Shown here in pieces: positions 32,624 to 48,142 of a DNA stretch of 64,000 nucleotides. Positions within the stretch are counted from its first letter, which is position 1. Each line of letters opens with the position of its first letter. Below the pieces are notes generated by a model, which saw nothing but the letters and a program-made list of their open reading frames with translations, searched no databases and had not been told where the DNA came from. This DNA is from Methanothrix soehngenii GP6 (lineage in GTDB: Archaea > Halobacteriota > Methanosarcinia > Methanotrichales > Methanotrichaceae): the NCBI RefSeq assembly GCF_000204415.1, contig NC_015416.1:1240001-1304000 (forward strand). Reading direction: 5' to 3'. Made by a program: the position numbers and the translations under genes.

Positions 32624-32663
32624 ATACCAGTATTTTTATAGGTTCAAAAGCCAATACTAGTAT
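32624..32663 (+). promoter_or_regulatory. Two palindromic operators flanking a TATA element
   Basis: ATACCAGTAT (32624-32633) and the perfect palindrome ATACTAGTAT (32654-32663) lie 30 bases apart centre to centre, about three helical turns. TTTTTATA sits at 32633-32640 between them. The same 10-base motif recurs at 47759-47817. A dimeric repressor bound at both sites would cover the promoter of the following small gene. Confidence 0.55.
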
Positions 32664-32678
32664 CAGGTGATATAAATC

Positions 32679-32810
32679 ATGATCAAAGGTCTATTAAAAT
32701 TGTTCATCAGCCTGATGGCCTTCACTTGGCTTGCTAAAAGACTACTTCGCCGCCGCATCCAGCAGGAGGAGGAGACTGAGGAGGTCTCCTCAGATCCCTG
32801 GCATAGTTGA
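32679..32810 (+). CDS. Small membrane-associated protein, 43 residues
   Basis: The short frame starts at ATG 32679 with AGGTGAT about eight bases upstream, a good ribosome binding site, and its own TATA element. The protein is a hydrophobic helix (IKGLLKLFISLMAFTWLAKRLL), then three Arg, then an acidic tail (QQEEETEEVSSD), as expected for a single-pass small membrane protein with the tail in the cytoplasm. I do not recognise a family. Support is positional (promoter, operator, ribosome binding site) more than by similarity. Confidence 0.5.
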   Translation: MIKGLLKLFISLMAFTWLAKRLLRRRIQQEEETEEVSSDPWHS

Positions 32811-47250: not shown

Positions 47251-47694
47251 TCATTCATTAGCTAACAGCAGCTGTTCATTCCGGTCTCTTTCATCACTGG
47301 GCGAATCGCTCTCATACTTGATGATCTCTTTTATCAAATCCTGGCCCGGCCCTACTACATCTGAAATGTCATTGCAGGAACATGCCCTAGAGTCGCAGTA
47401 TTTCAGAGCAAAATACTCGGAGATCGTGTCATCCAGCTCCATGAGCTTCTTTACGATGGGGTTCTTTTTATTCAACCTGTACATCTTCGCTTGGCCTACT
47501 GACCTGGTGGCGGTAATCAGGTCCAACGCCTCTAATTTAGGCCACGCCTTGAATAGTGTGGCTCTACTTAGATTTGCACCTTCTGCTATATCTGTTTTTG
47601 AATAATCAAAGCACTCGTTATCCATTAAAAAGTCCAGTACCTTTAGCACTGGGCTTTTAATTCCAAGTACTCTTATGAATAAGGACTCATCCAT
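47251..47694 (-). CDS. Winged-helix transcriptional regulator
   Basis: The 147-residue protein has an N-terminal winged-helix domain: SPVLKVLDFLMDNECFDYSKTDIAEGANLSRATLFKAWPKLEALDLI, with the recognition helix at LSRATLFKAWPKL, and a wing with VGQAKMYRLNKKNPIVKKLMEL. The C-terminal half contains CDSRACSCND, three Cys close together that could bind a metal or a cluster, and ends in an acidic tail. GGAGGAGGAAG lies just before the ATG at 47694, so the longer basic N-terminus is rejected. The upstream region has tandem 10-bp operators, suggesting autoregulation. Such small archaeal regulators often ride on mobile DNA. Confidence 0.82.
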   Translation of the reverse strand: MDESLFIRVLGIKSPVLKVLDFLMDNECFDYSKTDIAEGANLSRATLFKAWPKLEALDLITATRSVGQAKMYRLNKKNPIVKKLMELDDTISEYFALKYCDSRACSCNDISDVVGPGQDLIKEIIKYESDSPSDERDRNEQLLLANE

Positions 47695-47758: not shown

Positions 47759-47817
47759 ATACTAATATGTACTAGTATGTACTAGTATGCAATAAGGTTT
47801 AAATACTTTGCTAGTAT
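47759..47817. promoter_or_regulatory. Tandem 10-bp operators (TACTAG core) around a shared TATA element
   Basis: Three contiguous 10-base units, ATACTAATAT (47759-47768), GTACTAGTAT (47769-47778) and GTACTAGTAT (47779-47788), are followed by TTGCTAGTAT at 47808-47817. Between them TTTAAATA (47798-47805) can serve as TATA for either direction. One-turn spacing places protein dimers on one helix face. The same motif occurs at 32624-32663. Confidence 0.6.
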
Positions 47818-47890
47818 TGTTTTAAAAAGTGAACACAAATAAAATATAACTGAATATTTAGGGGTTGAATGGCTGAGCGAAGATATAAAT

Positions 47891-48142
47891 TTGATCTTAA
47901 AAGCGCAGATCTTAAAGAAGCTCCGCAGGCATGGGTATTGGGGCGGTCGTCATACCGCATACGACGATCTCACAAAGGGCATCCCGAAACATCTTCGCGG
48001 CCAAGCGAAAGACGCAGCAGAAGAGCTTATCATAGGGGAGTTCTTGCTTCCCAAGCAAACTGGTTATGGCCTTCATGTGTCATTGAACCCGCAAAAGAAG
48101 GCTGATATAGATAATCTCATCCGGGATGTCTTAAAAGAATAA
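47891..48142 (+). CDS. Small uncharacterised archaeal protein, 83 residues
   Basis: The frame encodes ILKAQILKKLRRHGYWGGRHTAYDDLTKGIPKHL, then AAEELIIGEFLLPKQTGYGLHVSLNPQKKADIDNLI. The pattern, a helical start, the HGYWGGRHT turn and TGYGLHVSLN, looks like a genuine small winged-helix-like protein found in archaea. I cannot name it. The start is uncertain: TTG at 47891 has no clear ribosome binding site, while an ATG at 47869 with GGGG upstream opens a different frame that overlaps it. TTTAAATA at 47798 is a possible promoter. It ends just before the RNase HI promoter. Confidence 0.6.
   Translation: MILKAQILKKLRRHGYWGGRHTAYDDLTKGIPKHLRGQAKDAAEELIIGEFLLPKQTGYGLHVSLNPQKKADIDNLIRDVLKE

Follow-up and report, generated by a model that had tools for sequence, protein, structure and literature searches.

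Matching operator-like palindromes at two promoters of Methanothrix soehngenii GP6 suggest a small regulon of a putative winged-helix autorepressor

Two promoters in the window, a 64,000-nucleotide stretch of the genome of the acetate-using methanogen Methanothrix soehngenii GP6 (bases 1,240,001-1,304,000 of 3,026,645, in two contigs), lie 15 kb apart and carry operator-like palindromes on both sides of the TATA box in nearly the same arrangement. One promoter precedes a 43-codon ORF for a small membrane protein and the other precedes the gene of a winged-helix regulator. The best explanation, which we hold with reasonable though far from full confidence, is a small regulon in which the regulator would repress both its own gene and the small membrane gene. 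The geometry common to both promoters is the strongest part of the case and was absent from the original prediction. Coordinates of all features are given in Table 1.

The small membrane gene had been described as having palindromes 30 bp apart around its TATA element, and both were found there: ATACCAGTAT and ATACTAGTAT lie with their starts 30 bp apart, and TTTATAGG lies between them, ahead of the ORF. On the strand of its gene, the regulator promoter reads ATACTAGCAA-AG-TATTTAAA-CCTTATTGC-ATACTAGTAC-ATACTAGTAC-ATATTAGTAT, with palindromic operator-like sites flanking the TATA box of the core promoter, as expected of an autorepressor. The motif was said to be repeated four times in this region (47759-47817). 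Four sites do occur, but only two are exact; one has a single mismatch and the last has two. On the other side of the intergenic region, the ATG at 47869 (region 47864-47895) is out of frame with the GP6 partner gene. Since this gene has no in-frame ATG, either it starts at the TTG at 47891 or its start region has been altered.

Table 1. Features of the two promoter regions (positions in the window)
Feature	Position	Strand	Remark
Upstream operator-like palindrome ATACCAGTAT	32624..32633	.	overlaps BRE position of small gene
Small-gene TATA element TTTATAGG	32635..32642	+	TTTTATAG kept in most family members
Downstream operator-like palindrome ATACTAGTAT	32654..32663	.	predicted start-site region; 30 bp start-to-start from first
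43-codon ORF (MIKGLLKLFISLMAFTWLAKRLLRRR...)	32679..32810	+	single hydrophobic helix, basic flank; Methanotrichaceae family
Winged-helix regulator, 147 aa	47251..47694	-	MarR-like / TubR-like DNA-binding fold
Operator-like site ATACTAATAT, 1 mismatch	47759..47768	.	third in tandem array, downstream of regulator TATA box
Operator-like palindrome GTACTAGTAT	47769..47778	.	second in tandem array
Operator-like palindrome GTACTAGTAT	47779..47788	.	first in tandem array, 9 bp downstream of regulator TATA box
Regulator TATA box TATTTAAA (minus-strand reading)	47798..47805	-	kept in relatives
Degenerate upstream site TTGCTAGTAT (minus strand: ATACTAGCAA)	47808..47817	.	between back-to-back TATA boxes
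Partner-gene TATA box TTTTAAAA	47820..47827	+	kept in relatives
Divergent partner ORF, 83 aa, TTG start, no in-frame ATG	47891..48142	+	predicted winged-helix fold

The sites that bracket the TATA box are offset by 30 bp at the small gene and by 29 bp at the regulator. From the start of the upstream site to the TATA box there are 11 and 12 bp, respectively, and from the TATA box to the downstream palindrome 11 and 9 bp, an agreement in TATA placement within 1-2 bp. In the window, the pattern RTACYRGTAY was found four times against 0.10 expected. Genome-wide (3.03 Mb), it was found 23 times, where an order-3 Markov model of the window predicts 17.7, and thus single sites are not special; 4 of the 23 fall in the two promoters. 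The TACTAGTA octamer occurs at 8 genome positions. The palindrome had been called rare, which does not hold for the single motif, scattered at about chance frequency, but does apply to the paired arrangement. An exact pair with N20 spacing (0 mismatches) occurs once in the genome, at the small gene, and the next best match has two mismatches; with N19 spacing the regulator promoter ranks at the top with two mismatches, and every other match has three. Genome-wide, chance pairs at offsets of 29-31 are expected about 3e-4 times under the order-3 Markov model, or about 5e-4 times when computed from the 23 real sites; it should be noted that the search pattern was derived from these same sites, but that neither the uniqueness of the pair nor the agreement in TATA placement formed part of it. 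The paired motif is unique to the small-gene and regulator promoters in the GP6 genome, as a two-promoter regulon would have it, and the tandem triplet array was found in GP6 only, nowhere else in 50 family genomes.

The extent of the regulon is two promoters and three genes, counting the divergent partner, and no convincing third member was found. Copies of TACTAGTA at three other loci (L001, L002 and L003) sit in coding sequence; the one at L002 is a perfect ATACTAGTAT. Locus L003 is a prophage-like stretch of the GP6 genome with terminase-like and primase/helicase-like genes. At L004:1524 (genome position 1816723), a single copy of ATACTAGTAA precedes a 56-aa ORF (MLKSNENIGSSRSVRSEIRYFDDELNP...) by about 25 bp, and at L005:1499 (genome position 2638598) another occurs upstream of a csl4-like exosome gene, where it follows a TTTATACC box by 9 bp. 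One site each is no more than chance would give, and because each has only a single site these two genes were not counted as members; the csl4-like gene is a possible but unsupported third target. In nine other family genomes, matches to the paired pattern resembled repetitive coding sequence, and none was at these promoters. Scans of the sigma-70 promoter and terminator type, with models that are not applicable to archaea, returned nothing.

The regulator is modelled as a winged helix, with pLDDT of about 95-98 over residues 20-90. In structure it comes closest to MarR-type repressors, ZitR among them, at TM-scores of only 0.4-0.5, and the best solved sequence match to its profile is TubR (E 4e-4). 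The protein falls below every Pfam and NCBIfam cut-off, and against Pfam MarR (PF01047/PF12802) it scores 12.4 bits where the cut-off is 24.6. The Pfam TrmB domain (PF01978) is absent from the window regulator at E up to 1; the same model gives weak matches in 3 of 13 relatives (best E 1.1e-3). Homologues were found in 19 of the 50 family genomes and also in Archaeoglobi, ANME archaea, Nitrososphaeria, Bathyarchaeota, DPANN archaea and two viral contigs, and the recognition helix is nearly identical in relatives (SRATLFK-W).

The exact palindrome was not found beside the regulator homologues. In close relatives, the TATA boxes of the two genes stand back to back in the intergenic region, and (C)GGTAAAG lies between them where GP6 has ATACTAGCAAAG; the degenerate GP6 site at 47808-47817 aligns with this conserved GGTAAAG element. 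Methanosaeta sp. PtaU1.Bin112 has the inverted repeat ATACGGTAA/TTACCGTAT, exact at 9/9 positions, astride the regulator TATA box: the geometry is that of GP6, in other letters. From the GGTAAAG element and this repeat, we conclude that the place is conserved while the letters drift; the part common to the different species is the (R)GTA half-site.

The small ORF was predicted to encode a membrane protein, and it does belong to a real Methanotrichaceae family of single-helix membrane proteins: these basic micro-proteins of 29-47 aa, each with a single hydrophobic helix, were matched in about 15 of 50 genomes, although the weakest matches are uncertain. In this family, promoters retain an TTTTATAG-like box as well as GGTGA ahead of the start. 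An orthologue search by way of the downstream RDD gene found the small ORF near that gene in G039 only, where the copy is orthologous by synteny, with the TPR gene upstream and the RDD gene downstream, as in GP6. The G039 promoter has only ATATTAGTAA; the upstream palindrome is absent, and the downstream position reads TAATATTAGTAATGG, two changes from the GP6 site, so that part of the GP6 downstream site is inherited promoter sequence. Four further small-gene family promoters had no palindromes, and the operator-like pair was thus found neither at the G039 orthologue nor at these four. G039 has no close copy of the regulator, its homologue being more distant (59%). Since the palindromes are missing at the small genes of relatives, control of the small gene, if real, would be confined to GP6 or its close relatives. 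The proposal of one small regulon is borne out in part: the two promoters rank as the top two genome-wide for the paired architecture, with TATA boxes placed alike, and the regulator promoters of relatives keep an element where GP6 has its upstream site, but the palindromes at the small gene are not conserved.

In the mechanism that we infer, the regulator, presumably as a dimer, would bind the 10-bp palindrome, with half-site AGTAT, in its own divergent promoter and in the small-gene promoter. The sites, at an offset of 29-30 bp or about three helical turns, would place one bound protein over the BRE and the other over the predicted start site, near 32660 at the small gene and near 47775 at the regulator, and from these positions the bound regulator would keep TBP/TFB and RNA polymerase off the promoter. 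Known archaeal repressors have their sites at the BRE/TATA region or downstream of it, where they block TBP/TFB or RNA polymerase; TrmB (TACT-N3-AGTA), MDR1 and Phr are precedents for such placement (PMC4158304). As each of the two TATA boxes has sites at both its edges, repression with autoregulation appears the most likely mode, and the regulator probably switches off both promoters. Both genes, and probably the divergent partner too, would be kept off until some signal releases the regulator. Against the regulator as repressor of both genes, its own upstream site is degenerate and 10 bp is short for the site of a winged-helix dimer.

The main rival is that the small-gene palindromes arose by chance, an AT-rich BRE and initiator having drifted into a match, leaving the regulator in control of its own divergent promoter alone. 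We think this unlikely but worth serious attention: G039 has, at the same place, a sequence two changes away from the GP6 site, other small-gene family members do not conserve the palindromes, and the single motif occurs at about chance frequency genome-wide. However, a pair at such spacing is unique where 3e-4 to 5e-4 would be expected per genome, and it has its TATA placement in common with the regulator promoter. It is less probable again that a different archaeal winged-helix regulator with a TACT/AGTA half-site targets both promoters, the gene at 47251 being merely one of its targets. Sequence alone does not assign the site to the neighbouring gene, the exact palindrome does not accompany regulator homologues, and TrmB of Thermococcales recognizes a related half-site, TACT-N3-AGTA (PMC4158304), yet the regulator's own promoter holds the densest array, a usual feature of autoregulators, and relatives have a conserved element, in one case an inverted repeat, at the same position.

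The palindromes placed over the predicted starts in both promoters, three in tandem at the regulator, fit blocking and make it improbable that the regulator instead activates one or both promoters by recruiting TBP/TFB from the upstream site, even though archaeal activators such as Ptr2 bind upstream and each of the two TATA boxes has a site immediately before it, the position from which activators of this type act (PMC4158304). Least probable, to the point that we give it little weight, is a partition or nucleoid-type module of the TubR/AspA kind with the array as its nucleation site. The tandem 10-bp repeats would suit such a module, as would TubR being the best solved match of the regulator profile (E 4e-4) and AspA the top fold match of the partner (E 1.6e-3), but these matches are weak and generic to winged helices, no TubZ or ParA-like NTPase recurs at the loci, the sites lie on core promoters, and the genes are chromosomal in GP6.

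The proposed repression has several known counterparts. TrmB of Pyrococcus/Thermococcus, at the malE operator, is likewise an archaeal winged-helix repressor with TACT/AGTA half-sites over the BRE/TATA, the repressor role being predicted in the present case; however, the GP6 regulator has no sugar-binding domain, and its half-sites abut (TACTAGTA) with no N3 spacer, which differs from the TrmB operator. Lrs14 of Sulfolobus is a small winged-helix autorepressor at its own core promoter, as we propose for GP6, but the Lrs14 family is crenarchaeal and differs from the GP6 regulator in sequence and binding sites. The winged-helix fold is common to the MarR family, although the GP6 regulator is under the Pfam gathering score and would be a dimer only by presumption. 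TubR and AspA, the best if weakly scoring matches of regulator and partner, bind iterated sites, whereas the GP6 pair has no partition NTPase nearby and its sites are on core promoters. MDR1 of Archaeoglobus fulgidus, a metal-dependent repressor, has multiple operators at its own promoter. It acts downstream of the BRE/TATA, hindering recruitment of RNA polymerase (PMC4158304); the GP6 regulator comes from a different protein family, and a metal-binding domain was not seen in it. The proposed mechanism is ordinary, akin to those of TrmB, MDR1 and Lrs14, and the newer element is a conserved, unnamed archaeal regulator-partner pair.

The regulator and the divergent partner of about 83 aa occur as a gene pair in different archaeal phyla, and neither Pfam nor NCBIfam has a family for the pair. 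A partner of this type lies beside the regulator in 43 of 56 genome loci, usually divergently. The partner matches no Pfam or NCBIfam family and no solved relative by sequence; it is modelled as a winged helix (pLDDT 92), and its top fold match, a weak one, is the archaeal plasmid centromere-binding protein AspA. Across 58 loci, no third gene recurs widely beside the pair, including any TubZ or ParA-like NTPase. PADLOC has no family for the partner and gave only weak generic HTH matches for the regulator, and a literature search for the pair found nothing. As a tentative proposal, which we consider less likely than not, the pair may be an undescribed two-protein winged-helix module present in some viruses as well as in many archaeal phyla. 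Its proteins would perhaps bind DNA jointly as regulator and co-regulator at operators that change fast between species, with a lineage-specific small membrane protein captured as a second target in GP6. Only very few regulons of the acetate-using Methanothrix are known. If the regulon is real, it would offer a small system, with just two promoters, in which to examine how an archaeal repressor works from sites on both sides of the TATA box, and would give a first handle both on the unnamed pair recurring across archaea and on the Methanotrichaceae family of single-helix membrane micro-proteins. Copies of the regulator or partner are frame-disrupted in several relatives (L007, L016 and L023), which suggests that the pair is accessory and often lost. 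The divergent regulator-partner pair is also present in two viral contigs, L099 and L100, and terminase-like genes occur on each of them.
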